From assembly GCA_964036275.1 (NCBI GenBank), contig CAXIWQ010000162.1, positions 22,620 through 86,619 on the forward strand: 64,000 bases of DNA, in the 5' to 3' direction. The first letter of the stretch is position 1. Every line of letters starts with the position of its first letter. The notes below the pieces were generated by a model. That model saw only the letters and a program-made list of their open reading frames with translations. It was not told the DNA's origin and searched no databases. Shown piece after piece: positions 33,001-58,100 of the stretch. The stretch is from Litoditis marina. Taxonomy: Eukaryota > Nematoda > Chromadorea > Rhabditida > Rhabditidae. The translations under genes were made by a program, and so were the position numbers.

Positions 33001-34656
33001 CATACAACATCTTTTGAAACAGTTCGGAACGAGAAGAGGTTTGTATAATGATTATACAACACCTTCTGAAACAGTTCAGAACGAGAAGAGGTTTGTATAA
33101 TGATTATACAACACCTTCTGAAACAGTTCGGAACGAGAAGAGGTTTGTATAATGATTATACAACACCTTTTGAAACAGTTCGGAACGAGAAGAGGTTTGT
33201 ATAATGATTATACAACACCTTCTGAAACAGTTCAGAACGAGAAGAGGTTTGTATAATGATTATACAACATCTTTTGAAACAGTTCGGAACGAGAAGAGGT
33301 TTGTATAATGATTATACAACACCTTCTGAAACAGTTCGGAACGAGAAGAGGTTTGTATAATGATTATACAACACCTTCTGCACCTATTCGGAACGAGAAG
33401 AGGTTTGTATAATGATTATACAACACCTTCTGAAACAGTTCGGAACGAGAAGAGGTTTGTATAATGATTACACAACACCTTCTGAAACAGTTCGGAACGA
33501 GAAGAGGTTTGTATAATGATTATACAACATCTTCTGTACCTATTCGGAACGAGAAGAGGTTTGTATAATGATTATACAACACCTTCTGTACCTATTCGGA
33601 ACGAGAAGAGGTTTGTATAATGATTATACAACACCTTCTAAAACAGTTCGGAACGAGAAGAGGTTTGTATAATGATCATACAACATCTTTTGAAACAGTT
33701 CGGAACGAGAAGAGGTTTGTATAATGATTATACAACACCTTCTGAAACAGTTCAGAACGAGAAGAGGTTTGTATAATGATTATACAACACCTTCTGAAAC
33801 AGTTCGGAACGAGAAGAGGTTTGTATAATGATTATACAACACCTTCTGAAACAGTTCGGAACGAGAAGAGGTTTGTATAATGATCATACAACACCTTCTG
33901 AAACAGTTGGGAGGGAAAAGAGGTTTGTATAATGATTATACAACACCTTCTGAAACAGTTGGGAGGGAAAAGAGGTTTGTATAATGATTATACAACACCT
34001 TCTGTACCTATTCGAAACGATAAGAGGTTTGTATAATGATTATACAACACCTTCTGAAACAGTTCGGAACGAGCAGAGGTTTGTATAATGATTATACAAC
34101 ACCTTCTGTACCTGTTCGGAACGAGAAGAGGTTTGTATAATTATTATACAACACCTTCTGAAACAGTTGGGAGGGAAAAGAGGTTTGTATAATGATTATA
34201 CAACACCTTCTGTACCTATTCGAAACGAGAAGAGGTTTGTATAATGATTATACAACACCTTCTGAAACAGTTGGGAGGGAAAAGAGGTTTGTATAATGAT
34301 TATACAACACCTTCTGTACCTATTCGGAACGAGAAGAGGTTTGTATAATGATTATACAACACCCTCTAAAACAGTTCGGAACGAGAAGAGGTTTGTATAA
34401 TTATCATACAACATCTTTTGAAACAGTTCGGAACGAGAAGAGGTTTGTATAATGATTATACAACACCTTCTGAAACAGTTCAGAACGAGAAGAGGTTTGT
34501 ATAATGATTATACAACACCTTCTGAAACAGTTCGGAACGAGAAGAGGTTTGTATAATGATTATACAACACCTTCTGAAACAGTTCGGAACGAGAAGAGGT
34601 TTGTATAATGATTATACAACACCTTCTGAAACAGTTGGGAGGGAAAAGAGGTTTGT
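30065..34656. repeat. 52-bp minisatellite array B
   Basis: About 88 copies of the same 52-bp unit as at 1-4566, in the same orientation and with the same variant types, including the rare 4-bp insertion form near 30829. It has more taatta variants near its left end and many cttttgaaac and gatcataca variants in the middle, so the two arrays have diverged in variant content. Confidence 0.97.
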
Positions 34657-35208
34657 CATTGAAAATAATTTATAGCCATTATAATGGTCTAGAAGTGTCA
34701 AAACATACCCTGTCAGCTGCAGCTGACAGTGGACGTGAGGGTTAAATTATGGCTTCGCTGACATTGGTTTGAGTTTTTATTTATTACTTTAACTCATCAA
34801 AACACATTGACAAAGAATCAAACCAAAGTTATGTCAAGTTTTGAATAGTTAAGTTTGACTCAACGTGTGAGGTTATGCATTCATTGACGTCAGTTCAGGT
34901 TTTTAATAGTCAGTTCAATTCAACAAAACAACTTTATGTCAAGTTTTTGGTATGGATCAAATTGGTCAGATATCAGTTTGAGAAGATTCTCGAAAATTCT
35001 CCAATCTTTCTTATTCTCGATATCTTTATTTGCTCACTCCTCATATGAATTACTTCTTCTTTCGTTCTCTTCCAAGTCACTTGACTGTGTTTTGCCGATG
35101 TTCTACTCTTTAAAATTCTGTTTTTGCTGAATTATGCTATTATTCAGTTTTCTTTCACAGTTTTTCTCTGCGGACAATCTTGAAGTACTCTTAACAAGAT
35201 TGTTCCAG
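34657..35208. other. Intergenic copy of a dispersed repeat with an 18-bp palindrome
   Basis: 34669-34990 resembles 45165-45395: both have ataatggt, aagtgtcaaaacatacc, the perfect palindrome tgtcagctgcagctgaca (here 34711-34728), gacgtca, and a final agtttgaga. It lies directly upstream of the glycoprotein gene, so it may supply its 5' region. No other gene is visible. Confidence 0.65.
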
Positions 35209-35209
35209 A

Positions 35210-38200
35210 ATGCTCAACATTTCTGCGTGTGTATTTGTGATGTACCTGGTATCCAGTTCCTATTGTCTGGACGTTCATAGTAAGCTGGAAAGGGAGGTGG
35301 TGTACCGCAATGCTGTGCACTTTGCCAGGTTTGATCTTTCTATATTCAAGGAGAACGTTTTCCCTCTGTTTCGTGAACAATTTCTGTCAAGCGTTTGTGA
35401 AACTTTGATCTCATAGAAATAGTCCTTCCAGAAATAAATTCTGACATGGAGAAGTGATTGCCTTGTTCTGATAAAGTGAGTTCATTCAAAAACAAATTAT
35501 GACATGAAGAAATGATCGCCGATCACAAGTTTTTAGCATGTAACATGTTACTTTGCTATTCCAGCAAAAAAGCTGATGAGAACTTGATTTCAGCGTTGTT
35601 GGGGAAGCCAGTAAGAGGATTCGTGTGCATTTGAAGTTCAACGATTTGATGCCTGGCAACCCACTGGCCCAAGTGACCATAGATCGATTGATACAAAATG
35701 AATGTCGAGCAGCTGGCATAGTTCTTGGTACAGGCTTAGTTTTGAGTTTTCGTTAGATTCTGAAATAAATATTTCAATGAAAAAACTGTGGTACTAACAG
35801 TGTATTATCTCAGTGATTGATACATATTGAGTGTCAAAAAGCCGGCAGAGTAATAGGTACATTCAATGCTTTAATGTTTCGTATGATTTCTGAATTCAAT
35901 ATTCAAATTTAAATGTGGGGTATGGTATCAAATGTACTGAAAGTATATGAATTCAGCTTTGTTATAAACTCACAAGTTCTGCCTTCAAAGAAAACTGACT
36001 CTTTTACTTCAGATGAAGAAGAACCACCTATTCGCGACAAACGTTTTATATTCATTGGCGCTCTTACGTTGGTGGTTATATTAGTGATTATTGGTGGAGT
36101 CGGCTACGTTTGCTACAACGAATTGTTCTGGAAAGTGAGTTGTGTTTTTATAGCTCTTTCATGACGATTGGAAGTTTTTGACTATAAACCACGGAAATGG
36201 TTGTTAAACTTTAGTTTTAGGCCATATTTTGTGTGTTCATTTTGTCCGTGTTAGTGGCAACAACTGTGGTTGTCAAATAATAATATTCCAGCCCGCCATG
36301 GCAGAAGCGCATCGTAACGCCAACGCCAAGCTCATGACAATGCTACTTGAACAACAGCAGGAAATGGCTAAAATGGGTCGATTTCAGGCAAAGTAGGTTA
36401 TCACAATGCTTGAGTGAGATTGAATTAGATACTTTGGTCAATTACTTATCAGAATGATTAGATGTTTACTCCAATGATTTCGATCGAATTGACCACAACA
36501 TTTGCAATTTTTATCGACTATGTAAGTGAAACGTTTGGATTCATTTCTCATCAATGCTTGAAATAGTACATTGCGGGGTTAAATGTGATTAAATGTTTCA
36601 GAATGGCCGGAAACCTGAATGCAATGCAAATCGGGGAAAATATGTCACCTGCCATCCGTGCGCTGTTCTCGGAAAATAGGGTTGACCCAAGCTTGTTCTT
36701 TCAGGAAGATTTTGTAAAGGTAGGTGTTAGCATACGTCCACTAGTGAGAATGATTCAGAACAGTATGAGTATACTTCAAGTCCCGCTTTCTTTAAACCTC
36801 GGTATTGTTGTGTATACGGTCTGATTTTGTAGTTGAACCGTACACGAGGTGGCATGATGGAATGTTTATTGCGGCGACGTTCCGGCAAATTTGCTTTGAA
36901 CTTCATGAACTGATGCCTTTTCAGGCTCTGAAAACGGCAAATTTGCCAAAACGTCGCCACAAAAAATATTCCATCATACTACCTCGTGTACGGTTCAACT
37001 ACAGAATCAAACCAGTATGAGTATAGTTTGATGACTCGAGATGATTTTGTGGAGGTGGGTTCATCTCGTGGAAAACAACCTCCGCGTAAGCCCACTCATG
37101 TAACTAATTTGGAACAATATTAGTATAGTTTTAACTCAAGTGTCTCAAAAACATTCTACTTTGAAGGCCGTGGCTGGAGCTCTAAATGTGGATACAGCCG
37201 ATGTAGCGTCGTATTACCCCCTCCTGAAAGCTCAACCGGTGGGATGCTCGAAAGACAACACCGTTGTTATTGACATCACTCTTCCCGAATTGCACGTGCC
37301 GGCTAAGGTTACCCAGGTACTGTTTTTGCCCATGACTTCTAAATCATATATAGTACTCAACGAACATTATTTTTAACAACCAAAACTCTAAAACTTGCTC
37401 AAGACTCTGCTGAGTCTGTTCATTGGTCATTTTAATTATGCCAATCCTGGCCGATAAAACTTGCTGATGATTCATGTTTCGGTTGCTTTTCTGCTGATGA
37501 GTAAATGTTTTTTCTTCTAATCAAGCCTAACTATAGAAAATTATTCAGATAGTGGACGCCGGACACGTTGTGGATGGGAAATTTTGGTTCTACAGGAGTC
37601 TTCCCGATGGAATTCTTACTTTCTCAAATGGAACTTATGCGGAGTACGACCACAATGAATGCAATCTCAAGGTACTTGAACTATCGTGAAAACGGTGATG
37701 GTATTTTTGCTCTCAAATGATAAGCATGACCTCTTTTCACCCCCCGTTTTTTGATCAAACTAACCACACGCCACACCTCTGTTGTATATAATTCCTATCA
37801 ATTAACACGCCATATTGTATAAACGATGAATTCGAGATAAACGTATTTATGTTGGCGTGAACAAACAAACTAACACGAATAGAATCCATTTCAGGGAAAC
37901 CTGACCATCTGCCCAGCTGATTCAATCTCTCGCCCCAGTTGTAACCTGGACTCACTGACGGATTGTCCTTCGTCCTTAGTTAAAATACCGGAAGAGGGAT
38001 CGCTTCTCAGAGAAGCTCTAGACTTCTATCTAGTTGTTCCCAATTCAGAGGTAAACTCAACTTCCTTTTTGACTAGATGAGCGCAAAACTGTATGATTCG
38101 TTTATTTTCCCTACTTGAATATATCACGGAGTTTCAGTTCAGAAAACGAATGTTTCATGGATGAAATGTCATTTTTCATTGGTATAGTTAGTAATTTTTT

Positions 38201-39458: not shown

Positions 39459-42400
39459 ATGACGGGACGAGGCAAAGCAGTGAACAAACCGGCTTCCTCA
39501 TCTTCAGCAAGTACATCGAGGGTATGTTTGTTGGAATCCTCTGTAAAAAAATGAAACTATTTGAAATATTTAGAACATTTATGAAACGCATTTTTCGGTT
39601 AGATAGTATCACATGGTGTTCTTTCAATTTCAAGCTAAGCAATTCAACGTAAAGTATCATCAACTATTCACCGTCGAACATTATTATGAGTGTATCAGAG
39701 GAAAACAACAAAAAGTTGTATTCATGAAACGTTTGCAATTTCTCTACGGTCAAAAGTGTTGAAATAATAGAATGATACGCAAATGAGAGAAATTATATAG
39801 AGTGCTACGCGAATGAGATGTTTCTTGATGTTTGAAAATTTCACTTTCAGGGACGTGGTAGACCTCGATCTCGATCATCGGGAAGAAATATGCTCCTCAA
39901 ACGAGAACACACACCAACTTCACCTCGTGAAGAACCTGGTAAGTTAGACTCCATGGAAGTCGGGTCGTTTGTTTCGGAGAACTGACCAATAATTGCAAAG
40001 AACTGAAACTTGATCCAAAAATTAAAGTAATGCCACTGGTCTTCAGGTACGCCTTCCAAGAAGAGGAACGAGAGAGGTGGTCCTGACGATGAGAGAGAGG
40101 ATCCGGTCGGTGACAGAGATGAAGATGGAGACGAAGCTCATTCTGCCAACAATGCCGATGAAGGAGCTGTTATTTCAGAAGACGACGATTCTTTTGACCC
40201 TGTCAAAGGTTTGTTTGAGTATTTTTTATCTCAAGATCTTGACAAAATTGAAATTTATGCAGCAAACACGTTCAGTTTTTTTGTGAAATTGTGATTTGAA
40301 TGATGTACTAGTTGAACACTTACCTAAATTTTTAAATTCCTTGTTTCAGTGTACGACAAGTTCTTGGCTGGACCTGCGCATGGTTTGACGTTCCCGAAGG
40401 AAAATTCATACGAGACGTTCTGCGAAATGTGCTACACAACAACAACAAACATTACTCGACACAAAGTAAGCAAACCTAACATTTGAGTTTATTGTCATTA
40501 TAATATTTTGTCAGTGCAGTTTAAACAGAAAATTATTGGATGACTATGGTATTGCTTCTCCAAAAATTGTCGAACCGTTTTCCGTTAAAGATTTTTTTCA
40601 CATTTTAAAGCAGTGGCATCTGTAGAAGCTCATTTCTGTTTCAGAGTTCGCACATGAAGCCCCAATTCAAAAGAACGAGCGCGATGGAAAAAGAAATGAA
40701 TAAGAACATGTCGAATCTGATAGCTCAGAGGAAGGCGGTTCAACATGAAATGTGAGTCTGTAGATTATGAACTTGAAAAAATTTCTGAACACAAAAGGAT
40801 GTTTTTTAAGGGTAGGACACTTTCAAAAAAACTTCGGTTAGCTGCCATTCATTCAGTGTGTAGTAATTGTTACTGTGAGGAAATTAGAAAAATGTAGATT
40901 TCACAAGAAGAATGTTGCAGGTTCACATGCCATCGCTTTCAACAGAAGTCAACTTGGTTAGACATTCTGCAGAATTCGCCAGCCGAAACTAAACGGGACG
41001 TGATAGAGGAGATCGAAAAGTGAGATATTTTCAATATATCGTTGTTCTCAAGTTGATAATGGAGAAGGGTAGTTTCAGATTCAGTAAATTTATGTGTGCT
41101 TTCTGTGTTTTTGTTATGATAAGTATCTTGCATGTACTTTTTAGAATGGGCGTCGCGTTCTTGCCATTTTCGAAGCCGTACACGGATTGGAGCCAACCAT
41201 ACGAAAAATGGCAGATTGTCACCGAGAAGGAAATCGAGGAGGAATTAGTCGCATCCGAGGACGAAGACGATTCTGTTGCGGAGGACAACACCGTCTTCCA
41301 TGACGAGGTAGGTAACATGTTTCAACTGAACTGCTTCCAGTTCACAATGAATTAGACTTTTTCAGTTTTCAGCGAATATGTCTTCCCTAATCTGGCATGT
41401 GTTGTTTCTAATAGAGAAATCAAAAACTAATAGCAAGTTCAATGCGAACAAGAGCTCCTCATTTAGTTCAAGCTGTTTGCCTGATCCAAAAACAATTTAT
41501 ATTCAACTTCAGAAGTATATCGGTAATATACATTGCGATCCTATCGAGTGTTATGACCTGGCCCAGTGTGGAAGTACTCCCAAGAATCAACTCGCCAAGA
41601 TTGATGCTGAGGGCTTGAGGCGGAAACTGAAGACTGAGGAGCACCCCTTCCTGCAACATCTTTGGGACTTTGAGTTTCGCATGGCCACAAATGCCGCGTT
41701 GAACAGGGTAATTTTCAATCATAGTTTTTTTTCATTGTTTTTGTTTGGGATTCGAACAGTTATAAAATGTATTTTTTCTCGTATCAGTGAAAAAAGTATC
41801 AGTGTGTAATTCTCTGATACTTGTCATATGCAAATTTCACATAGCTAGTCAATGTGCTTCAGTGTGTGTCAGTCAAGTTTGTATCATTTGTTTCAGAAAA
41901 AATATGTTCAACCTCGCCAAACCGCAAATGAGACTACGCACAGCGTTGCGAAAGTCTTGCTCATTGCCTTGCGGTTGGCGAGACGGTTGGGCAAGACAAT
42001 TTCGAACTTGGACGACGTCCCCAAGCGGTACTTCGTGAGAGCTGTGCAGGGATTCGTTAACCTTCACATGCATGTGAGTATTCATAGCATGCAATTATAC
42101 TTGAATATTGAGTTGGAGGGAAATAACTGTGAAAATGACTGTGCACACGTTGCATCGTGTCACAAAAGGACAGACATTTATTTTCTCTCCACGTCCGGCT
42201 AGGACTGTCAATCACAACCCAGAAGTAGTATTAGTCGATTAATCTGTTACCATTATTCGGTATGTCGATATTGTCTAGTACTTTCAAGAATGTTGGGGAA
42301 AAAACTGTTTCATTCTTGAAATCATCTCACTGAAGGTTAAGAGTGAACTGTGATAATCTGAAAAGTCTATTTAAATTGATTGTTTTGTTCATTTGAAATT

Positions 42401-45400
42401 ATACTTCATTTTGCTCAGTATCACCACAAACTAACAGATAACATTATACCGTGTTTTTATTTTATTCTGATCAATTGTTGAGGTTCATTTCAGATGTATC
42501 CAAAAGGAACAGCCCTGAACGCAATGCGAGGTTTGCGACGGTTTACAACGAGGATTGGAATGATGGATGACAGGTGAGAGTAGTCATTTTCAACAGAACT
42601 ATCGATTTATTTTGTGTAGTCTATGCTTTTGGAGTTTTTCATTTTGTTCCCTTTGAATTTATCTCTGTTTGTTTTCCAGAGCGAATTCTCCTTCATGGGA
42701 TTTCACCTTACATATGGCACACACGAGGATAACAGAGCTGTCGAGCATCAGTAGCAGTGTGAGTTTTCAATTGAACCGTGTATTGACCATTTGTTTCAAG
42801 GAACCATAAATGTCTATGTCTGTTCAAAGGCGAATGTAATTTTGCTGATGCTATTATTTGACTAATTTATTCAATCAATGAACGTTACAGCGATCAGTCG
42901 CCGCGAATAGTGAAGCTCGGACGAAACGACCCGTTGCGCTCTACCAGGATTTGGTCAAAGCCATCAAACCTGTCATGGCATATATCAAGTCCATACTTGA
43001 AGAGACCAGGTTGGTTTTTTTCTACCAAGTACACACATAACTCGTTTTTAAATTTCTGACCTTTCTGTTCAGGAGTATGATGCACCCGGCAGAACAGATG
43101 GATGACCAGGTGTTCAATCGTCTAGGCTACCTCATCAATTTTGTATTGATGGTTGAGAATGGACAGCGGACAGAGGTATTTCAATATCTCGTAATTGAAT
43201 TACCCAAGTGGAGTGATGTTGACTGCTGAAAATGCAAAATAGTTCAGTTTGTGTTTGTTTGTTTGGTGTATCAGATAGACAAACCGAATTTAGTCCAGTA
43301 GAGAATATTTTTTCTGTGAGTTTTCAGCCGAAATCACAGAGCGAACCACGCTAAATGAGAGATTCAATCACAGAGTAGTGACTTTCAGATTGCGTACAAA
43401 CTCCGACTCGCTGATTTCGAGAACAAGAAACAGGGGATACAAATGGAGCCAGGAACACGGCCATACCTGATACCTTTTCCAAACAACAAGACCACCAAAT
43501 CGAATGGTTGCGTGAGTTTCACTTACTTCAAAACAGTGGGCTTGCCAACATAACTTGAACTCAAAATATGTGCGAAACCGTTTAGTTGAAATTGCTCTAA
43601 CCAGCGTAAATAGTGTTCATCCAATAATTGTGTCGTACTTATCTGAACAAAATTGTTGTCTTAACTTATTTTTGTATGCTATTGAAAAATTATGTGAAAA
43701 TTCGTTTACAGCTTTGTACGAGTCCCGAGACAAAGTTGTTGTCTTAACTTATTTTTTATGCTATTGAAAAATTATGTGAAAATTCGTTTACAGCTTTGTA
43801 CGAGTCCCGAGATGATTGAGTATCTGTACCAGTATGCGAGATTGAAACAAGACTGGTTCAACCTCTACAAGGAGCGACTTGGTACGTTCTCAAACATTAA
43901 AGTAATTAATGACTACTGAAAACTGAAAACTGTTTCTCAATTGTCTTTTACCGCATTTGTGGCTTTGCATAACTTTAAACTGATACTATTTGGACACATC
44001 GAAAAATTTTGCTTATTTGAGATGCATTTTTTAAGAGCCTGCACAAGAAAGAGTGGGACATCTACTATTCATGACAGCCAATCTGAAACCTCTCTCAAAC
44101 ATCAGTTCAAATGTGAGTTTTGTTTCGTTTGTGTACATAATTTTTTTCAGAAAATCTCAACATAAAAGGTCGGATAATATTCACGGTTAATCTATAACAC
44201 GCATAGGGATCTAGGAACTCTTCGTACGTTTCAGACTCGAACAAACCTATGCTAATCCTTTGTGTTAACGATACCAGGAATATGTTCTGCTCCAATTCCA
44301 AACTTAACAGTACATCAACGTGTTTTTAGGTCAAAGCTCACTTGAAGAGTTTGGGAACAGTCGACATGTCACACTTCAAAGGTACACTTGTTTCTGTGCG
44401 TAACTCTGCTGCCAACACCAACGCGGGAATCATTTTGAACTTGGACTCCGACAACTTGGATGAATCATGGTTTCCGGCTCACGGTTCCATGGGTCACAGT
44501 ATCGACACACACAAACGGGTAAGTATTTCAAACGGATCGAACAAACGACAGAATCACTATGTGTCAGCTATCTAAGAAAACGTTTGGGTGAACAAACATG
44601 TTGTTTACTCTATAAAAACTGGATTCATCCCATGTGCTCAATTTCAGCGTTTTTTTGTTTCAGTACATCACCGACACGTCTCAGCTGGTTCAGAAAGCTT
44701 GGCATTGGCTTCGAAGAGAGGCTCACGGAACACTCACTCAAGAAGATGCGCAAGAAGAATACGGAGATCTGCAACAAATGATGGAGCGTTTGGTTGGAGA
44801 GGTAGGTATTGAGTAATTGTGTAAAACGCTCCGAGAGACAGAAATCGAGAAGCTAAAAAGAAGCTTGTACACGACATCTTCTGTTGTTACTAGCTTGCGA
44901 GATAGTTGTGTTTTTTTTATTTTCACCACAGTATATGAGACATTTTTAGGAGGAACTACGAGTCTGCCACACTGGTTTGGACACGAAGCTGTATGAACTC
45001 GGAGGTTAGATTTATAAAAAAAACTGAGAAACCTACCGAAATGTTTGGTATTTTATGTGCCAGAAAATAAGAACGAACGAGATTTTAAAAAAAAACTTAA
45101 AAATTATTACTTCTGGCGGGAATTTTCACAGTATTATTCTCAAACTGGACTCAACTCCAGTGACAATTTTTAGCCCATATAATGGTTCCAAAGTGTCAAA
45201 ACATACCTTGTCAGCTACAGATGACACAATGTCAGCTGCAGCTGACAATGGCCCTAAGTGTGAAAGTATGCGTTTGCTAACATCAGTTCCTGCTACAATT
45301 GATGTATTCATCCATAAAAACTTATTAACAGAGATTAAGCTTCGACTGACGTCAAGTTTTTAATGTTTAATGGAATAGGTCACATACTAGTTTGAGATAA

Positions 45401-48400
45401 TTTTAAACAGCCCATGTTTGGGAAACATGTATATTGGCGATGAGAATAATTTACTATTTTAAGTTCGGGCAACGAGCGTGAAAGTCAACGGAAGCACGAA
45501 GAATCTACTTCATGTGACCCCTATGAAACTGGTTGCATATTGCGCGACGCGCACCAGTCTGGGAGGAGCGATATCCGCAAGCATCAATCAACAGACGGGT
45601 GCCGATGACCTGGCTAATGGACCTGAGGTACTGATTCCCTTATCGCATATCGTGAAAAAATTCTGCTTAGAGTACCAATCAGTTTCGAAAAAACAACTTT
45701 TCCCACTATTAGTCAGAACATGTGGTGTTTTGCATTTTTATCCAGCCTCAGTGTACTGTTCTACTGCAATTTTCAGTTGGACCGAGTGATCAACCTGTGC
45801 ATTTCCAAAATAATGCCGGATGAGATCGACCTTGACGCGAACGAGCATCACACTAACATCCGAAGGGCAGTCATTGTTTTGGAGGCACTCGGCTACCCGT
45901 TCGCCATCTTCCATACTCACGATGGAACGAGTGAGTTTGCATTCATTTCTTTATCCAACAATATCTTCAAAAGTTAATGTGGAGTGGTCTCAGTTTCACA
46001 ACTCACAAAATATTTTACGTGTTCAGGTTCCGCTCGCAAAAGTTCCCATGTTCGTATGGCACTACTCAGTGGATCGGTCGACATATCTGATATAGTTGTA
46101 CGGCTGATGTACTGTGAAATCAACGAGACATTCTATACACTCGTGAGTTGTGGTGCAGAAAAGCATATCAAAACGTTTTTGCAGAGACCGTCTGACCCAC
46201 GATCAAAAACAAGTCAATCAGTAAATGTTCTAGATAACAAGCACTAGTCGCATTATTACTAACTGTAAATTGTTATTTTTGAATGTTTGAGTTTACACAA
46301 TGCGTAGCTTATTCATTCTTTATTACTACTTAAGTCGGCATTCGACAAATAAACTAGTTTGAAACATCACGTGTTGAATTATGTCGACGGCGGTGATAAT
46401 TGTGAAGGAATCGAAACGTGGAAGTTTTAGTGTATACGTACTTCATATTTTAGGTGAGAAGAGATGGTGTACAGGGACTGGACTGCACGGTGGCTTACTC
46501 TGGGTTGAACATCACGAACGCTACTATTTCGAGACGGCGAAGTAAAGAGATGCACGAGCTGGCCTGTCAAAAAATGTCATCGTTCTTGAAAAGAAGTGTG
46601 GAACGGTGTGATGGCTTCAGTTTCTACACTCCAACCACCATGAAGATGATCTGCTCTAACGCAGAAGAAGAAAGAGGTGATTACTATTCATTTTCTATAA
46701 ATTCCAGTAGTACGGACAGAATGAACATGTGTGAGAGTAAGCTTGCTGATTTGTGTTTACTATTTAAGTTCACGTTCACATGGTAGGATCACATTGCCTG
46801 TTTGACAATGACTAGTTTTTTCAGTAGCACACTTGGAAGAGGGATCGTTTGCGCTAGACGAGGAAAGCGGGCCTGATCTCGGATTGGAGCAGGAAGAAAC
46901 AGACCTAGACGATTTGATTGATCAAAACATGGACGATTTCAATGACACTGCTGGAAACAACACTACACTGCAACCAAGTACGTTTGTTTAAATTATTGGT
47001 TCACAAACATTTCCATACATTCTTGCAGCAATTACTAAATTACAAATTATATCAATTGTTTGGGTTAGACCTTTCACGCATGAAAACAGAAAACTCGTGA
47101 AAACAGTGCACTTTTCGACATCTTTCATTCGTTTTTGTTCAAGGGAACAGGAAGGAGAGTGAATCAGGTGAAGGAGATTCCGCCGACCAACCGGGACAGA
47201 TGAGAAACAGACAATTGTTGGCAAACAGAGAAGGCTATTCTGCTCGAGGTAAATATTAAATACTTGAATAACTATTTAAAAAATTTGGGTTATTGCTTAT
47301 TTGCAGTTATACACACTATAGTCGAGATATACTAACTTTCTTTGCTCTTCATCAATTTAAAATTTTGTGTCCGATGAATGAACTCAGTAGTCATTATTGA
47401 ATAAAGTCAGTAGTCAGTAGCCGACACAAGTTCACTTTGTTTACCTTTTCACGAATTGAAGGTTTTTCGAATGTAAACTATTTTTTAAGAGGACGGAATT
47501 GATGCGTCCATGGTTCAAGAATCTGATCCCAATGATGTTCCCGGCACCAGCGGCTGCAATATGTATTCCCATCATTCACAAGGTGACGAAATGGATTCAG
47601 AATATCGACAAGGTAAATAATTGGTTTTGTACTGTTTTAAAACAAATTGTCTGTTACTGATAGTTAAATTTGAATAATATAAAGCTATTCCAAAAACACA
47701 TAATTGTATTTTAGATGCCTGGTACACGGCCTCCCAGATTGCTAGGTGTGATCCAGCAAATGTTCCTGGTCCGAACAGCACCGAAGTGAATCCACCACAA
47801 AGACAAGGTATAGATTCGGTTTTGTATTGTTTCAGAACATTTTTTTTGTTACTGATAATTGAAGCTAAATATCATAAAGCAAAGCAAAAAAAGAAGAAGT
47901 TAGTTTCAGTTGCCAATTCAAATGAGTAATCAATGTTTGAACAAAACTTGAAAGGGAAAAACGTTTTGAGAATCGAAGCCATCCCACGTGTTCTAAATTT
48001 TTTATTTGATCTGTTCCTCAGTTTTATTCTCAAAATTTCAGATTTGCTCCATGAGGCGAAAATGGTTGATCTCACAGAAGAATCAAGATTGAGGAGAAAA
48101 GAAATGAAAGACCTCAAATGTGGCTATCATCAATTTGAAAATGGAGTGAAGGTGTGTGACATTTTTGGTTGTATAGTATAATTTTGCCCGCTTCTTTTCC
48201 TGCAACAATATTAGCCTCATAATACATTTTGGTTTTGATATCGAAAATGTACAAAATATTGGAAATTCAACATCGGTTTTACAGTTACTGGAGTTGGCTC
48301 TTGCTGATTCTGAAGACAACGACCCGTACGAACTCGCTCCAATCAGTAAGAAGCACAAAGATCTTGCCGCACTACCTCATAAGAACATTCAACTGGCCTT

Positions 48401-50901
48401 GATACAACACATTTCGGCATACTGGCCATGCATAAGGCCGATGAACATCAAGGAGCGAACACTTACTACGAAACAAGCTGGATCTGGTTAGTGAAAAGAA
48501 AACTTGTTTGTTGAATATTTCAATATTAAGAGAGCTGTCAGTATAACTAGTAAATACAAAAAAATAACTATTAATTACGAAAAACAGTCTTCTTTCTTTT
48601 TTCAAATGTAATTTTTGATCAATAATAATAGTGAGTCCTTACAATGAATTATTTAAGGTGTGGCGGCGACTTGTGACATTCCAAAAGGAAGCATCATCTG
48701 CTCCTACTATGGCCGTCAGATGTCATACGATGACAGAGACACGTGAGTTGATTCTTTCACACTTCATTTTCTAATTTTGACTGAATGAAATGGATTGGAA
48801 ACAGATTTTTAAATTTTCTGATCACAATGTTAGCTCAATTTAGATACGAGTTTGGCGTCCTGCAGTCAAAGAAACTTCACATGGATGATTACAAGATTGA
48901 AGATGATCTCAACAAAGTGGCCATCTTTGGACACACAGCGCTGGGAAAAAATCTTTCTCGAGGTGAGCACATGAACAAACTGCAAAATAGTAGTTTTCTG
49001 AAATCACCATGCCAAATTTATGAATAGTCGTGCATCCCTCATTTATCCACCCAATTCATTTCATGCGTTACTCATCATTTTTAGAAGACGGAGACAGCTG
49101 TGTATTTCTTGGCCACCTCATGAATCACAGCAAGATTCATTTCAACGCAAGAGTGATGAAAGAAAACGGTCCCAAGTCTGATCGTCATCGTTCAAGTAAG
49201 TTTCAGTACAAAACTTCTCACTCTTTGCTGACCAGTACCATAAAATAATTTGAAGGTTTCTGTAAATTTGGAACCCTTCAAAAGGTTACATTTATGATTT
49301 GCAGAAAATCGATCTTTAATGTGCATAACATTACTACCAACTGGCAATTATAGATCCCTACTGGCAAGTGGTATTCCTGAAAGCCACTCGGGACATCAGA
49401 ATGGGAGAAGAGGTGTTCTGGGATTATGGGAAGGCTTCGGATTTCCCCATACATCATGTATGCATTTGCATGAAATGCCAAGGTAAGAATGAGAATAACA
49501 GAAGGACTTCATGGCATTAATCAATTTTGTCCCAGATATGTTTAATCAACAATTTTAATTCGTCTCAGATATGTTTAATCAACAGTTTAACACAAGTTGA
49601 AATTGTATCGTGTTTTTAAGGACGTTGTCACTGCGGGAATTGCAGAGGAAACACCTTCCACAACAAAAACCCGAGGGAGACTATGGAGGCCTTGCTGGAA
49701 AACTACAGCAAAGACAATGTAAGTTTGTAAACACGTCGACTTTGTGTCGAGTTAATAATATGTTCCCGTCACCAAGAGATGTAGTAAATAATAGTTCCAA
49801 GTGCACAATCACATATTTATTTTTACATTGATTTAAGCAGTAGTTTGTCTGACTTAACAATAATATAACACTGAATAGAACATCACGTCAAACGTGTATC
49901 AATCAAATTGACCAAAACTGTAGCTGAAGCTGACACCACTTGTGTATGCAAAACTTGAATTTATTAGTTCCGACTGAAATTCACACAGTATCATGGATCA
50001 ATCTGTTATCCAATTTTCATTTTGCAGGGAACGGTTTACGCAAGGAAACCTCACCAAACCATGGCTAAAACTCTGCGAGGATTGTGTGCCGCAACTTTTC
50101 AAGGAACGGATCTGTCTCCAGTAAGTTTATTGGAACTATTCACATACAAGAGCGAACGTAAGAAAGTCAATTGTTGTTGATTTATTTCCATTAAATCTAC
50201 TCAGATTCCAATGAGCTAACTATTATCGTTAAATACACTCGGCCTTTCAAAACACTCAAATTATTGTACGGGCAATTGCAGGAGAAGGAAGACAAACTAC
50301 TGACATATCTCCAAGAAGACATTGACAACGACTGCGAACAGTTGACGCGCTTCCGTAAGAAAGCAGCCAAAACAGGAGGCGTGCCATCGGATGGGTTTTT
50401 CAACTTGTTCATCCAGAAGACAGGAGCAAATCCGAAGGTTTGTTGTGTCATAACTAGATTTGACAATAAGGAACGAGATTTGGTAGAGGTGTTTCGCGTA
50501 TTCGATATTTTCAGTAACTACTTAATAGCTCTCACAACTAATAATTAACCAACTTTTGAAGAGAAAAGTGGTTTAGAATTAGTGTCAAACCAATTTGGAA
50601 GGGTACCGTTCACTGGGCAGAAATTCTACCGAAGTGCAATTTTTTTAGGTTCTTCTGTGCAGGTCAGGCTTTGTTGTTTCATAAACTAAATTTCCAGCTC
50701 ATTGTGACTGGTCTTGCCGTATGGTTGAAGAACACTGTTATTGTTCTTTCGTCGAATGAAGGCCTGAGTTTCCATCAGTCGACAGCTCAGGATGCAGCCC
50801 CTGACGAGTTCGTTTTGATTCAGGCAGGTGTAGCCTATCGTTTAGTGCTAGCTGTAGATGCGTGTACATCTACTCTGTGCGTACCGTTAAATACAGCCTG
50901 A
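39459..50901 (+). CDS. Tyrosine recombinase-SET methyltransferase fusion gene, 37 exons
   Basis: Exons: 39459-39521, 39851-39938, 40047-40208, 40350-40465, 40645-40751, 40921-41019, 41145-41307, 41513-41707, 41897-42073, 42494-42573, 42680-42758, 42891-43009, 43073-43175, 43389-43511, 43794-43881, 44036-44112, 44330-44518, 44664-44801, 44950-45004, 45464-45627, 45777-45930, 46027-46142, 46454-46676, 46825-46977, 47144-47248, 47490-47612, 47715-47807, 48042-48151, 48285-48486, 48658-48742, 48844-48962, 49085-49195, 49354-49482, 49621-49718, 50028-50120, 50282-50437, 50698-50901. They sum to 4,659 nt with every junction in phase, giving 1,552 aa. Order: AT-hook (RGRGRP, 23-27), acidic stretch, zinc-finger-like CX2CX9HX3H (129-146), recombinase-like domain (about 260-700), a 250-residue region I do not recognise, acidic linkers, SET (about 1205-1385), C-terminal tail. 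Likely a nuclear protein. An earlier end at 46247 is possible (see findings). Domain calls rest on motifs only. Confidence 0.8.
40350..40654 (+). other. Zinc-finger-like segment of the recombinase-SET protein
   Basis: Exon 4 and the start of exon 5 encode FCEMCY..ITRHKSSH: Cys129, Cys132, His142 and His146. The 9-residue spacing between the second Cys and the first His is short for a classical C2H2 finger (usually 12). Crypton-type recombinase proteins of animals often carry one such finger before the catalytic domain. Confidence 0.6.
42494..44801 (+). other. Tyrosine recombinase domain (Crypton-like) of the recombinase-SET protein
   Basis: Exons 10-18. The pattern follows the animal C2H2-plus-tyrosine-recombinase proteins. 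A helical N-terminal part contains PSWDFTLHMAHTRITEL. The first catalytic Arg is in NGQRTEI (Arg515). A LIPFPNN strand region precedes SPEMIEYLYQY. Box II reads SVRNSAAN (Arg637), then MGHSIDTHKRY with His669 and candidate nucleophile Tyr677, the first residue of exon 18. The usual H of the HxxR motif is replaced, so activity is uncertain. If active, such enzymes cut and rejoin DNA through a phosphotyrosine; Cryptons move this way without terminal inverted repeats. The call is by eye and needs a profile search. Confidence 0.68.
43664..43827 (+). repeat. 82-bp tandem duplication across an intron end and exon start
   Basis: The segment with ttcgtttacag and ctttgtacgagtcccgaga occurs twice, so there are two identical splice acceptors (before 43712 and 43794). 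Using the first puts a stop in frame 12 codons later; the second gives the long reading frame. Confidence 0.85.
45005..45463 (+). repeat. Copy of the palindrome-bearing dispersed repeat in intron 19
   Basis: Contains aatggttccaaagtgtcaaa and the perfect palindrome tgtcagctgcagctgaca (45230-45247), with an imperfect second copy just before it. Similar to 34669-34990 and, in its first half, to 51515-51630. The intron is longer than its neighbours, consistent with an insertion. Confidence 0.7.
48285..49718 (+). other. SET domain with cysteine-rich post-SET segment
   Basis: Exons 29-34. The three SET signatures are present: GSGVAATCDIPKGSIICSYYGR, split here as GSGVAATCDIPKG (start) and ICSYYGR; LMNHSKIHFNARV (the NHS cofactor-binding motif); and GEEVFWDYGK with the conserved final Tyr. 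A cluster of six Cys follows (CICMKCQGRCHCGNC), fitting a zinc-binding post-SET region. These are the features of protein lysine methyltransferases using S-adenosylmethionine. The substrate cannot be told from the sequence. Confidence 0.9.
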
Positions 50902-52976
50902 TTGACTTGTTATTTCATGAAACTATATTTATATTATTTGATCTTTCTGAATGAGTAATTGATATGCTACTTTATCTCGATTAGTTATTGTTCTTGTATG
51001 AATCATTAAATGTTATTGTGTGATTACTGTCCACGTAAGGTGAATGTTGTTGTCTTATTAAAATAAGTGAAGGAGTTTTTCGAGTATAGAACGACGTGTC
51101 TTATGCTCTTGTGCAAATTTATCTGAATTCATTATTGTTTGAGTGTTCACAAATGTTTGTTGTGATTTCTGTTGAGTGGTTACTAATCACTTTGTTCAGA
51201 TTGATTATTTGTTCATACATGTACAGATTTTTCAAGTGTTGAATAATGTTTGAAATGAAAAATACTTAACCTCGGCGTTTTTTTTCAAGTTTGAGACATT
51301 AAGATGCTTAGATCTACAATATTCGATATCTGTTTCATTCCGAATCTGAACGCAAGTGTTGAAAAAGCATACGAGAAATTGTTTTCAAGCATACAAATGT
51401 GTTGTAGCCAATTTAATGGTTTCAAGCTGTCCAAACTGCCTTTTGGTCGAATATGAGTATATTTCATGTTCAACTAAGATATTCCAGCTATAAGAAACCT
51501 TGGAATCATTAGTTTTGGCTAAAATCTTCACAGTATTATTTGTTTTACCCCAATAAAACCTTTAACCAAGTTCTGGCCAATATAATGACTTCAAAGTGTC
51601 AAAACACCCCTTGTCAGCTCCCAGGGTTCACACAACATACACTGCTCTACAAAATATCCAAGAATCAGCCAAAATGACTATGTAGCACAATAGCTTAACA
51701 CTCAAACATATATTTTCCAGACCAAAACCCAGTTGTGGCTCTGGCCTAGCCAACACAATAATGTCGTTTTCAATACCGATACCTCCCCATAAGGTGTCAA
51801 TACTGTATTATGTCACTCTACCAGGAACACTACGTTTAGGCTACTCTCTCAGCATCAAGCATCGATTCAGCATGTAAACCCAGAATGGGAAGTCCACATA
51901 ACTTACCTGAATAACTCCCAACTATATTTTTTTCTGTTATCATCACTGTTGGTACGGTTCAACACGCTCTACAACATATGAAATAACTAGCAAATATAAT
52001 GTGTCAAATTTTCAGATATTGATCAATAATTACAAATAGCCCACTACTCCATTCACTATACATACGAGCAATCAGACCAATTTTGCGTCCATATAAACAA
52101 CGAATATCATTATATCATCAAATTAAGCGCCTAAAACTACCCTAACCCAACCGGAACCGCCCATAGTTGAAAATAGATCACAATTACACAACAATCACAG
52201 CTACAAATATACCTATGTCAGCCAACATACCGACCACCCTAACTTTGCTTTCTTCTGACATTAATTTTTTTATACTCGATAGTAACTTACAACATACACA
52301 AAAACCAGGCAATATAATTCATTAGAATCCAAAATATACATCATTAACCGTTCATATTAAACCTATTACTCCTCCCAAATATAACCGGGCTGGTGATCCG
52401 CTATACGGACTCGCACGATCTGTAATCATTTTCAATCAGTTTTGTACAACAAGATATTCAACTCCAATAATTCCCGCTACACCTAACATTTTCTACAACT
52501 TCTACACCATAGGGGACCGTTAGCGGCATTATAGCTCCAAATCCAATAATTAGAAGGTATGGTTATTTGACCTAACTTTGGATTGTGACATTAAATTTGC
52601 CTATAAATTACATTGCTAATACAAATTTGAACCCTCTACAACATATCGAAAAATCAAAAAAAATTATCATGCCAAATTTGAGATATGGTCCAATAACCCT
52701 CGTAAGGGAACCATCTAGTACTACATATTCTACATTTCCACCACATAACTAGCATAACTCAGCTTTCTGACTTTAGTTTTGCCTGAAAATTGGCCCACAT
52801 ATAAAATGAACCAAGCGCTACAACATATCAAAAAATCAGCCAATATAATAATGCCAAAATTGAGATACTAATTTTTAACCGACACAACTTGGCCTAAAAC
52901 GACCCACCAGGGTACCACGACCAAAGACCACTAAACACGACCCGTCACCTACACGACTATTTTTCAACGTATAAAT
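50902..52976. repeat. Degenerate repeat DNA downstream of the recombinase-SET gene (copy 1)
   Basis: 50902-51480 looks like ordinary 3' flank. From 51500 on, diverged copies of a unit with ctctacaacatat, aaaaatcagccaatataat and tgccaaatttgagata recur at about 51645, 51965, 52630 and 52818 with irregular spacing. 51515-51630 also matches the dispersed repeat at 45120. No gene is visible. Confidence 0.7.
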
Positions 52977-52978
52977 AG

Positions 52979-55188
52979 CATCATCTGCTCCTACTATGGC
53001 CGTCAGATGTCATACGATGACAGAGACACGTGAGTTGATTCTTTCACACTTCATTTTCTAATTTTGACTGAATGAAATGGATTGGAAACAGATTTTTAAA
53101 TTTTCTGATCACAATGTTAGCTCAATTTAGATACGAGTTTGGCGTCCTGCAGTCAAAGAAACTTCACATGGATGATTACAAGATTGAAGATGATCTCAAC
53201 AAAGTGGCCATCTTTGGACACACAGCGCTGGGAAAAAATCTTTCTCGAGGTGAGCACATGAACAAACTGCAAAATAGTAGTTTTCTGAAATCACCATGCC
53301 AAATTTATGAATAGTCGTGCATCCCTCATTTATCCACCCAGTTCATTTCATGCGTTACTCATCATTTTTAGAAGACGGAGACAGCTGTGTATTTCTTGGC
53401 CACCTCATGAATCACAGCAAGATTCATTTCAACGCAAGAGTGATGAAAGAAAACGGTCCCAAGTCTGATCGTCATCGTTCAAGTAAGTTTCAGTACAAAA
53501 CTTCTCACTCTTTGCTGACCAGTACCATAAAATAATTTGAAGGTTTCTGTAAATTTGGAACCCTTCAAAAGGTTACATTTATGATTTGCAGAAAATCGAT
53601 CTTTAATGTGCATAACATTACTACCAACTGGCAATTATAGATCCCTACTGGCAAGTGGTATTCCTGAAAGCCACTCGGGACATCAGAATGGGAGAAGAGA
53701 TGTTCTGGGATTATGGGAAGGCTTCGGATTTCCCCATACATCATGTATGCATTTGCATGAAATGCCAAGGTAAGAATGAGAATAACAGAAGGACTTCATG
53801 GCATTAATCAATTTTGTCCCAGATATGTTTAATCAACAATTTTAATTCGTCTCAGATATGTTTAATCAACAGTTTAACACAAGTTGAAATTGTATCGTGT
53901 TTTTAAGGACGTTGTCACTGCGGGAATTGCAGAGGAAACACCTTCCACAACAAAAACCCGAGGGAGACTATGGAGGCCTTGCTGGAAAACTACAGCAAAG
54001 ACAATGTAAGTTTGTAAATACGTCGACTTTGTGTCGAGTTAATAATATGTTCCCGTCACCAAGAGATGTAGTAAATAATAGTTCCAAGTGCACAATCACA
54101 TATTTATTTTGACATTGATTTAAGCAGTAGTTTGTCTGACTTAACAATAATATAACACTGAATAGAACATCACGTCAAACGTGTATCAATCAAATTGACC
54201 AAAACTGTAGCTGAAGCTGACACCACTTGTGTATGCAAAACTTGAATTTATTAGTTCCGACTGAAATTCACACAGTATCATGGATCAATCTGTTATCCAA
54301 TTTTCATTTTGCAGGGAACGGTTTACGCAAGGAAACCTCACCAAACCATGGCTAAAACTCTGCGAGGATTGTGTGCCGCAACTTTTCAAGGAACGGATCT
54401 GTCTCCAGTAAGTTTATTGGAACTATTCACATACAAGAGCGAACGTAAGAAAGTCAATTGTTGTTGATTTATTTCCATTAAATCTACTCAGATTCCAATG
54501 AGCTAACTATTATCGTTAAATACACTCGGCCTTTCAAAACACTCAAATTATTCTACGGGCAATTGCAGGAGAAGGAAGACAAACTACTGACATATCTCCA
54601 AGAAGACATTGACAACGACTGCGAACAGTTGACGCGCTTCCGTAAGAAAGCAGCCAAAACAGGAGGCGTGCCATCGGATGGGTTTTTCAACTTGTTCATC
54701 CAGAAGACAGGAGCAAATCCGAAGGTTTGTTGTGTCATAACTAGATTTGACAATAAGGAACGAGATTTGGTAGAGGTGTTTCGCGTATTCGATATTTTCA
54801 GTAACTACTTAATAGCTCTCACAACTAATAATTAACCAACTTTTGAAGAGAAAAGTGGTTTAGAATTAGTGTCAAACCAATTTGGAAGGGTACCGTTCAC
54901 TGGGCAGAAATTCTACCGAAGTGCAATTTTTTTAGGTTCTTCTGTGCAGGTCAGGCTTTGTTGTTTCATAAACTAAATTTCCAGCTCATTGTGACTGGTC
55001 TTGCCGTATGGTTGAAGAACACTGTTATTGTTCTTTCGTCGAATGAAGGCCTGAGTTTCCATCAGTCGACAGCTCAGGATGCAGCCCCTGACGAGTTCGT
55101 TTTGATTCAGGCAGGTGTAGCCTATCGTTTAGTGCTAGCTGTAGATGCGTGTACATCTACTCTGTGCGTACCGTTAAATACAGCCTGA
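52979..55188 (+). pseudogene. Truncated second copy of the SET half of the recombinase-SET gene
   Basis: Contains part of exon 30 (to 53029) and copies of exons 31-37 (53131-53249, 53372-53482, 53641-53769, 53908-54005, 54315-54407, 54569-54724, 54985-55188). All remain open. The only coding change I saw is Val to Met in GEEVFWDYG (g to a near 53700). There is no promoter, no start and no first SET motif, so it is a 5'-truncated copy. Because it lies in the same orientation downstream, exon 29 of the intact gene could splice into it or skip past it. Confidence 0.88.
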
Positions 55189-58100
55189 TTGACTTGTTAT
55201 TTCATGAAACTATATTTATATTATTTGATCTTTCTGAATGAGTAATTGATATGCTACTTTATCTCGATTAGTTATTGTTCTTGTATGAATCATTAAATGT
55301 TATTGTGTGATTACTGTCCACGTAAGGTGAATGTTGTTGTCTTATTAAAATAAGTGAAGGAGTTTTTCGAGTATAGAACGACGTGTCTTATGCTCTTGTG
55401 CAAATTTATCTGAATTCATTATTGTTTGAGTGTTCACAAATGTTTGTTGTGATTTCTGTTGAGTGGTTACTAATCACTTTGTTCAGATTGATTATTTGTT
55501 CATACATGTACAGATTTTTCAAGTGTTGAATAATGTTTGAAATGAAAAATACTTAACCTCGGCGTTTTTTTTCAAGTTTGAGACATTAAGATGCTTAGAT
55601 CTACAATATTCGATATCTGTTTCATTCCGAATCTGAACGCAAGTGTTGAAAAAGCATACGAGAAATTGTTTTCAAGCATACAAATGTGTTGTAGCCAATT
55701 TAATGGTTTCAAGCTGTCCAAACTGCCTTTTGGTCGAATATGAGTATATTTCATGTTCAACTAAGATATTCCAGCTATAAGAAACCTTGGAATCATTAGT
55801 TTTGGCTAAAATCTTCACAGTATTATTTGTTTTACCCCAATAAAACCTTTAACCAAGTTCTGGCCAATATAATGACTTCAAAGTGTCAAAACACCCCTTG
55901 TCAGCTCCCAGGGTTCACACAACATACACTGCTCTACAAAATATCCAAGAATCAGCCAAAATGACTATGTAGCACAATAGCTTAACACTCAAACATATAT
56001 TTTCCAGACCAAAACCCAGTTGTGGCTCTGGCCTAGCCAACACAATAATGTCGTTTTCAATACCGATACCTCCCCATAAGGTGTCAATACTGTATTATGT
56101 CACTCTACCAGGAACACTACGTTTAGGCTACTCTCTCAGCATCAAGCATCGATTCAGCATGTAAACCCAGAATGGGAAGTCCACATAACTTACCTGAATA
56201 ACTCCCAACTATATTTTTTTCTGTTATCATCACTGTTGGTACGGTTCAACACGCTCTACAACATATGAAATAACTAGCAAATATAATGTGTCAAATTTTC
56301 AGATATTGATCAATAATTACAAATAGCCCACTACTCCATTCACTATACATACGAGCAATCAGACCAATTTTGCGTCCATATAAACAACGAATATCATTAT
56401 ATCATCAAATTAAGCGCCTAAAACTACCCTAACCCAACCGGAACCGCCCATAGTTGAAAATAGATCACAATTACACAACAATCACAGCTACAAATATACC
56501 TATGTCAGCCAACATACCGACCACCCTAACTTTGCTTTCTTCTGACATTAATTTTTTTATACTCGATAGTAACTTACAACATACACAAAAACCAGGCAAT
56601 ATAATTCATTAGAATCCAAAATATACATCATTAACCGTTCATATTAAACCTATTACTCCTCCCAAATATAACCGGGCTGGTGATCCGCTATACGGACTCG
56701 CACGATCTGTAATCATTTTCAATCAGTTTTGTACAACAAGATATTCAACTCCAATAATTCCCGCTACACCTAACATTTTCTACAACTTCTACACCATAGG
56801 GGACCGTTAGCGGCATTATAGCTCCAAATCCAATAATTAGAAGGTATGGTTATTTGACCTAACTTTGGATTGTGACATTAAATTTGCCTATAAATTACAT
56901 TGCTAATACAAATTTGAACCCTCTACAACATATCGAAAAATCAAAAAAAATTATCATGCCAAATTTGAGATATGGTCCAATAACCCTCGTAAGGGAACCA
57001 TCTAGTACTACATATTCTACATTTCCACCACATAACTAGCATAACTCAGCTTTCTGACTTTAGTTTTGCCTGAAAATTGGCCCACATATAAAATGAACCA
57101 AGCGCTACAACATATCAAAAAATCAGCCAATATAATAATGCCAAAATTGAGATACTAATTTTTAACCGACACAACTTGGCCTAAAACGACCCACCAGGGT
57201 ACCACGACCAAAGACCACTAAACACGACCCGTCACCTACACGACTATTTTTCAACGTATAAATAGATCACATAAATGAACCACAAAAAATTTCACTCCGA
57301 ACAACTTTCTCCGCACCTACTATTACACAGCCACCACCAGGGTCATTAATCCATACATGACCACTTCTCCCGATTGACCTAACTTCATTATTTGATGATG
57401 AAATTTTCTATACTTCACATATATTGGACAACTTTTCACGCTCTACAACATATACAAAAATCAGCCAATATAATGTGTTAGATTTTTAGATAGCCTCCCA
57501 TAACTGCTATTTCACCAACCTCAATTATACCCATATTACCGATTTGACCTACTTAACCTCAAAACTAGCCGCTAATAACATTCTCATCGTTTTCAGCACC
57601 TAAAATAACCCTACTACAGTCATTTACAGCCAATTCTAATTTTTTCATTTTTTCACATAAGGGTCCCCCCCATGCTACTTTTCAGAGACCTCCATATCCC
57701 AAAACTATGACCTACCGTAACTTTTTTCCCCTTCATTAAAATTTTCTATAAATACAAACTTAAACTCACAAAAATACGCCCAATCGAACGCGCCCCTCCG
57801 CGACCAGATCCAAAGACTTTTTATTTTCGTTAAATCTAGGATATTTTAAGATCAATACAAAATGTCAGCTCGAGCTGACACAATTTTCTAAAATTTGCCA
57901 TTTTCTCCGCGCTCGACCGATTTTTGAGCTCGAGCGCTTCAGAGCGAGCAGAGATCACGGAGAAAAAGATATTCTGGACGCCGCGAGCCGAAAAACCGAC
58001 CCTAAGCATCATTTTCGACCCAAGAAAGAAAAAAACCCAAAAAAAGAGGTACCTTGCGGCAATTGCTGTAGCGAAGTCAGTTTTCGAGATATCAACTTTA

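Follow-up and report, generated by a model that had tools for sequence, protein, structure and literature searches.

We analysed a 64,000-nt stretch of the Litoditis marina genome (the window; C170:22620-86619 within a genome of 261.8 Mb and 522 contigs), in which a sequence-only reading had proposed a single gene joining a Crypton-like tyrosine recombinase to a SET methyltransferase at 39459-50901 on the forward strand. The spliced coding sequence of this gene is 4,659 nt long and yields 1,552 codons plus a stop from 37 exons; its introns are GT-AG throughout and 63-459 bp in length, and the sole in-frame stop lies at the end of the coding sequence. The proposed single-frame model was thus exact, and Arg515, Arg637, His669 and Tyr677 lie precisely where that reading had put them. 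Most likely, the predicted protein begins with a motif like a zinc finger and a module like a tyrosine recombinase, followed by a conserved linker domain, an acidic, probably disordered stretch containing a motif that resembles a SUMO-interaction motif, and a C-terminal SET domain. Composition was measured on a preliminary model of 34 exons and 1,451 aa, in which exon 8 was too long and the 3' end open, and which was later corrected with the help of a paralog termed C4b. In this preliminary model, GC content at third codon positions was 0.51 compared to a GC content of 0.32 in introns, and none of the 1,432 exon codons was a stop compared to 6.2% in introns (nominal chance of stop-free exons 10^-40, uncorrected for exon choice). 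The used frame was stop-free in 34/34 exons and ranked top by codon score alone in 22/34.

Searches of the genome with the SET part and with the recombinase-like part (36/36 candidates scored for each; tblastn matches considered to E 0.5, 1 or 0.1 depending on the search; copy counts are lower bounds) identified at least three distinct full-length loci: the window gene, C4b at approximately 45.05 Mb of contig C4, and C4a2 at approximately 44.73 and 44.76 Mb, about 0.3 Mb from C4b. The two C4a2 copies are identical over 9,099 bp from the gap edge onward and were counted once. C4b and C4a2 both have the order found in the window, namely N-terminal module, linker and SET domain, and their identities to the window protein are given in Table 1. 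The C4b model, which was built with homology and manual edits, comprises 37 exons and 1,618 aa, and it matches the window gene in all 36 intron phases and in the length of 24 of 37 exons. An 82-bp tandem duplication spans the exon 15 acceptor of the window gene (43647-43812); exon duplications also occur in C4b (exon 16) and C4a2 (exon 13), where a single copy was chosen to give the best models. Partial copies were found as well: on C170, SET exons lie ahead of the window; C1 carries a SET fragment at 10.098 Mb; and C4 has 5' exons at two sites, 1.54 and 1.56 Mb. At the one of these two sites that was tested, the next 9.7 kb showed no later exon. We ruled out C4b as a haplotype copy, as most intron sequence is unalignable and synonymous sites are 59% different. 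A 3.2-kb block upstream of the gene (34828-38052) is 87% identical to C4:45040769-45043993 upstream of C4b and is present near full length only at these two places; its identity despite the 59% synonymous difference may reflect gene conversion.

Table 1. Features of the 37-exon gene, in window positions. Percentages are amino acid identities to C4b / C4a2.
Feature	Position	Strand	Basis
Whole gene, 37 exons, 1,552 aa	39459-39521, 39851-39938, 40047-40208, 40350-40465, 40645-40751, 40921-41019, 41145-41307, 41513-41707, 41897-42073, 42494-42573, 42680-42758, 42891-43009, 43073-43175, 43389-43511, 43794-43881, 44036-44112, 44330-44518, 44664-44801, 44950-45004, 45464-45627, 45777-45930, 46027-46142, 46454-46676, 46825-46977, 47144-47248, 47490-47612, 47715-47807, 48042-48151, 48285-48486, 48658-48742, 48844-48962, 49085-49195, 49354-49482, 49621-49718, 50028-50120, 50282-50437, 50698-50901	+	Splice joining; paralog exon structure; cross-trained parse
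Zinc-finger-like CxxC...HxxxH motif, aa 129-146, exons 4-5	40421..40653	+	Seen in the sequence; C4b and the C4a2 N-terminal piece have a similar motif
Region before catalytic-like block, aa 266-475	41305..42986	+	79% / 48%
Recombinase-like block, aa 476-705, with R515, K551, R637, H669 and Y677	42987..44750	+	Three-copy alignment, block test; dN/dS 0.16 (aa 476-690); 80% / 50%
Box I, NGQRTEIAYKLRLADF, R515 at 43167-43169, split by intron 13	43158..43418	+	Best block placement
Box II, VSVRNSAANT, R637 at 44399-44401	44390..44419	+	Best block placement
Box III, SMGHSIDTHKRYIT, H669 at 44495-44497, Y677 at 44664-44666, split by intron 17	44486..44672	+	Best block placement
Conserved linker domain, fold unassigned, aa 741-958	45004..46672	+	73% / 40%
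Acidic, poorly conserved linker, aa 959-1117, probably disordered	46673..47806	+	27% / 18%; disorder inferred from composition
MVDLTEES motif directly N-terminal of SET, aa 1125-1132	48062..48085	+	VIDLT / AVDLT in paralogs
SET domain with flanks and cysteine-rich post-SET, aa 1118-1402	47807..49718	+	Pfam SET; PDB EHMT2, KMT5A; motifs; 72% / 45%
C-terminal region, exons 35-37, aa 1403-1552 and stop	50028..50901	+	67% to C4b

The identity of the SET domain is certain from profile and motif evidence. Pfam SET (PF00856) matches the window protein with 39.9 bits, against a curated cut-off of 22.4 bits, over model positions 1-105 of 105, confirming the earlier assignment, and it also matches the other two copies (35.9 and 44.9 bits). 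Signature motifs of SET methyltransferases are GxG, YxG, NHS and DYG, and all four are present in the window protein and in C4b, while C4a2 carries NYG where DYG is expected, a point against the reading favoured below. Across the family these motifs read KxAGxGV, CSYYG, NHS and EEVxWDYG (EEVLWNYG in C4a2), followed by CICxxCxGRCHCxxC. A profile of the three SET copies matched EHMT2 in the PDB with E 2.8e-5, mainly at the domain start, and SET8/KMT5A with E 1.1e-4, with most of the domain aligned. The VDLT-type motif that precedes the domain in all three copies resembles a SUMO-interaction motif. An NCBIfam match of the SET part was far below cut-off and was dropped as noise. At the other end of the protein, the zinc-finger-like motif of the sequence-only reading is conserved in both paralogs, in C4a2 on its N-terminal piece, although no library names it; the linker domain (aa 741-958) had no match in Pfam or PHROGs.

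The substitution pattern between the window gene and C4b indicates that both halves of the protein are under purifying selection. The ratio of nonsynonymous to synonymous divergence (dN/dS, NG86) is 0.21 overall, 0.19 in the N-terminus, 0.16 in the recombinase-like part (aa 476-690), 0.23 in the linker domain, 0.29 in the SET domain and 0.22 in the C-terminus. The disordered part and aa 266-475 are saturated, and an overall dS of 1.15, near saturation, makes all of these values rough and to that extent weakens the case.

Based on motif order, spacing and conservation, we consider it likely that the N-terminal module derives from a recombinase or a topoisomerase IB. When the Arg-I, HxxR and GH...Y blocks of a reference set of 84 tyrosine recombinases (YRs) were scanned in order over the whole protein, the best three-block placement fell on NGQRTEIAYKLRLADF, VSVRNSAANT and SMGHSIDTHKRYIT, which are the motifs named in the sequence-only reading. 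In the three-paralog alignment, column shuffles scored as well in 3 of 1,000 cases for aa 266-741 and in 5 of 1,000 for the whole protein. R515, R637, H669 and Y677, together with K551, which is presumably the catalytic-type lysine and was assigned by position, are identical across the three gene models, and the region before this block (aa 266-475) is possibly the core-binding part. The genome itself holds 65 matches to PF00589 (Phage_integrase), many of them single open frames of 240-433 aa, and is therefore rich in tyrosine-recombinase elements. Twelve of these stretches were added to the YR profile (the longest frame of one, L243, is not recombinase-looking, and another, L245, is partial). 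With the combined profile of 84 YRs and 12 nematode stretches, hhalign placed box I in the canonical register with a probability of 2.6%, and 1 of 60 column shuffles was as good.

Other results weigh against this derivation. The block test on the single sequence is not significant (352 of 5,000 and 251 of 1,500 shuffles as good), a hidden Markov model (HMM) of the 84 YRs gives the single sequence -0.3 bits (96 of 865 scored shuffles as good), and hhalign with the 84-YR profile gives it a probability of 0.62% (44 of 300 shuffles as good). Against the family, the same profile reaches 4% with an alignment at an incorrect position, and the top score among 200 column shuffles is higher; the nematode stretches alone miss the canonical register (13 of 60 shuffles as good), and when the 12 nematode stretches are scored with the family HMM they stay in the range of shuffles (2 of 12 unscored). 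For the N-terminal module, no recombinase was found in Pfam (five scans), PHROGs or NCBIfam, nor in the PDB with either a single-sequence or a profile query. The histidine of HxxR is missing: its place, three positions ahead of R637, is taken by V, V and L in the window protein, C4b and C4a2, respectively. In addition, exon 13 is present twice in C4a2; the copy used in its model reads NGQRTEV, and the other reads NGRSTEV, with S at the R515 position.

A rival explanation is that the protein is one gene product whose N-terminal module is no tyrosine recombinase at all, with R...R...GHS...Y arising by coincidence in an unrelated helical domain. In its favour, library and PDB searches name no recombinase, profiles of 84 YRs yield no sensible alignment, and a histidine of the catalytic pattern is missing. 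We regard this explanation as unlikely though by no means negligible, given that the family block test lands on these very motifs with so few shuffles as good, that hhalign recovers the canonical box I register once nematode stretches join the profile, and that copies with no more than about 50% identity share the motif residues. The tyrosine-recombinase claim stands on motif order, spacing, conservation and the family block test, and we keep it at probable, since the searches of profile libraries and of the PDB detected none.

Several further searches accompanied this work. Sub-threshold Pfam names (PWP3A-B_C, WT1, RIN1, BLOC1_2 and BAR_3) and one PDB match at E 0.76 were dropped as noise, and exon 17 predicted alone with AlphaFold gave an uninformative confidence (pLDDT) of 47.5. 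A tblastn search against phages returned five weak places (best E 0.7). Scans of viral and prokaryote contigs gave no usable relative: one SET relative was reported without a locus, and locus L165, phage-like by its open reading frames (ORFs), was dropped as a chance match. A protein database gave zero matches even for SET and was taken as near-void of such animals, making its silence uninformative.

We hold with high confidence, on the strength of gene prediction, that the window gene, C4b and C4a2 are each one gene spanning both halves. A parser trained on C4b only and run free of homology read the window as one gene of 40 exons, with 34 of the 37 model exons recovered exactly; after training on the window alone, it read C4b as one gene of 39 exons, among them all 37 of the model, and C4a2 as one gene of 37 exons and 1,568 aa. 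The order of parts in three divergent copies, the intron phases and the best parse thus all support the single frame holding N-terminal module and SET domain that had been read from the window.

The competing account is that two separate genes, recombinase-like upstream and SET downstream, have been wrongly joined, perhaps from a trans-spliced operon. Operons are possible because the genome carries the nematode spliced leader SL1, in keeping with a nematode host: the SL1 22-mer has 765 exact genome copies, compared to 0 for its reversed control, some of them arranged in series on C1 at intervals of about 1,367 bp and others dispersed. If the parser is made to break the gene between the halves, leaving a gap of 100 bp or more, the cost is 21.7 bits in the window, 14.4 in C4b and 11.6 in C4a2, and these costs include a self-set boundary penalty of 16 bits per copy. 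The cheapest break in C4b and in C4a2 coincides at a Met in exon 21; the same place costs 33.0 bits in the window (100-bp gap). When one boundary has to serve the three copies alike, the cost is at least 54.6 bits within the disordered linker (exons 23-28), 6.6 above the penalties, and 59.0 bits at exons 20-21, 11.0 above them, and if no minimum gap is imposed the cheapest shared intervals fall 2.8 and 5.4 bits below the penalties. Once the boundary penalty is removed, the one-gene margin is therefore small, which counts against our preference. Placing the break at other points of the recombinase-like part or immediately ahead of SET (exons 28-29) is costlier. In the window, cuts forced within the recombinase-like half itself cost 15-30 bits, an amount similar to that for the break between the halves. 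The margin by which the parse favours one gene depends on how rare boundaries are, but the agreement of all 36 phases between the window and C4b through the linker and the conservation of the linker domain (73% and 40%) add to it. Gaps between coding exons of at most 459 bp in that region and the best parse of one gene in all three copies also speak against a wrong join. Taken together, these considerations make a wrongly joined gene pair distinctly improbable.

If the halves form one gene, it could in principle still be mobile. The sequence-only reading had suggested that the protein chooses or marks its own integration sites or, alternatively, that it is a domesticated regulator, and of these two the latter is supported as the better reading, on account of 36 introns, three full-length loci with fragments, and dN/dS of 0.16-0.29 in both halves. 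That the gene is an unusual tyrosine-recombinase transposon carrying SET and still moving is very improbable: catalytic-type residues are kept, several copies and fragments exist, some near-identical, and a SET partner could mark target sites, but there are 36 introns, the full-length loci found number three plus fragments (lower bounds), with two about 0.3 Mb apart on C4, one in a duplicated segment, the copies that are near-identical consist of pieces duplicated in tandem or in the assembly, and no inverted or direct repeat of at least 60 bp brackets the gene within 36000-60000 (smaller ends lay outside that search).

We therefore favour, with moderate confidence and from sequence comparison, a host gene family, probably derived from a recombinase, whose members may combine DNA binding and chromatin methylation in one large protein; low copy number, introns and selection are the reasons for calling it a host gene. 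In this view a mobile element would have supplied an old recombinase gene that became joined to a SET gene, after which the fused gene would have acquired many introns, been kept by selection and duplicated. The recombinase-like module would bind specific DNA, and possibly nick it, thereby bringing the SET domain to that chromatin, where it would methylate a histone lysine. We infer the nuclear location, the DNA targeting, the histone substrate and the origin from a mobile element. Strand cutting stays conceivable because the apparent active-site residues are retained, and full recombination is less likely because the HxxR histidine is lost.

The residues Arg-Lys-Arg-His-Tyr are the catalytic set of topoisomerase IB as well as of recombinases, and programmed DNA elimination occurs in some nematodes. 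A stronger version of the host-gene reading, in which the family has a working strand-cutting and rejoining centre of this kind covalently tied to a histone methyltransferase, strikes us as improbable. Were it true, DNA breakage or relaxation and chromatin marking would take place at one site, for example in chromosome segregation or programmed DNA elimination.

Several repeats lie around the gene. A 4,287-bp tandem copy of 48690-52976, covering the SET exons from the middle of exon 30, lies at 52977..57263 (+) with 5 mismatches, and further SET pieces 99.4-99.7% identical lie before the window at C170:14904-20000; both may reflect either recent tandem amplification or an assembly error. An inverted-repeat element at 36818-37013, with 77-nt arms and dozens of genome matches, resembles a miniature inverted-repeat transposable element. 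By appearance, BEL/Pao-like and Gypsy-like retroelement ORFs occupy both strands at 8454-18930, and two 52-bp satellite arrays and one 134-bp satellite array occupy 1-4569, 30065-34656 and 58291-63429. Rfam and tRNA scans of the window gave no match.

Finally, we compared the gene with known systems, using literature of which each source was covered in part (including, besides the papers cited below, PMC9406493, PMC5240408 and PMC10680173). Among the matches listed from the open-access literature, judged by title and start of abstract, none describes a fusion of a tyrosine recombinase with SET, in agreement with the earlier statement that no such fusion was known. A screen of 10 million eukaryotic proteins recovered SETMAR, and the parts of its main text that were covered, supplement excluded, mention no recombinase-SET pair (PMC12062965). 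The architecture looks unusual and intact, and within this literature we did not find the pairing described.

Among host genes of recombinase origin, the animal genes KCTD1, KIAA1958, ZMYM2/3/4, QRICH1 and WOC derive from Cryptons and hold a recombinase-derived domain beside others, and the DUF3504 genes have lost Tyr and the second Arg (PMC3212892, in the parts covered). By contrast, the protein described here keeps both residues and has SET as partner, and Pfam scans of the window protein and its paralogs found no DUF3504 match. The catalytic tetrad of Crypton recombinases is given as R-H-R-Y (PMC3212892); if, as we read it, the tetrad histidine is that of HxxR, then V, V or L occupies its place here. 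The label Crypton-like is not established by these results. The portion covered of a survey of nematode YR elements reports one Crypton only, in Nematostella, and describes nematode DIRS/PAT elements as encoding a recombinase plus, in some, a methyltransferase domain (PMC4157794). DIRS/PAT elements are whole retroelements with a reverse transcriptase, which a Pfam scan did not find in our protein, and the family HMM scores the 12 PF00589 stretches of the same genome no better than shuffles. The methyltransferase domain of those DIRS/PAT elements that have one is a DNA methylase. On the SET side, KMT5A/SET8 and EHMT2/G9a are the nearest solved domains to the family profile, although the likeness is weak (E 1e-4 and 3e-5) and the family differs from them in a CxCxxC...CxCxxC post-SET cluster with no recognised pre-SET.

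A close parallel is SETMAR (Metnase), which likewise unites SET and a mobile-element recombination enzyme in one protein and whose mode, DNA targeting of a methylase, is like the one that we propose here. In primates, SETMAR arose when a mariner transposase inserted downstream of a SET gene, whereas here the recombinase-like module comes first and SET last, in a nematode gene of 37 exons with a family of paralogs. The reversed order and the lack of a transposase domain in the Pfam scan set our gene apart from SETMAR itself. New regulators are known to arise by fusion of mobile-element enzymes with chromatin enzymes, but the host fusions that the literature examined names, SETMAR among them, use DDE-type transposases. 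If our reading is correct, the joining of a tyrosine-recombinase-like module to SET would represent a second, independent route, selected in divergent animal paralogs and, unlike the DUF3504 genes, with its active-site residues apparently kept.

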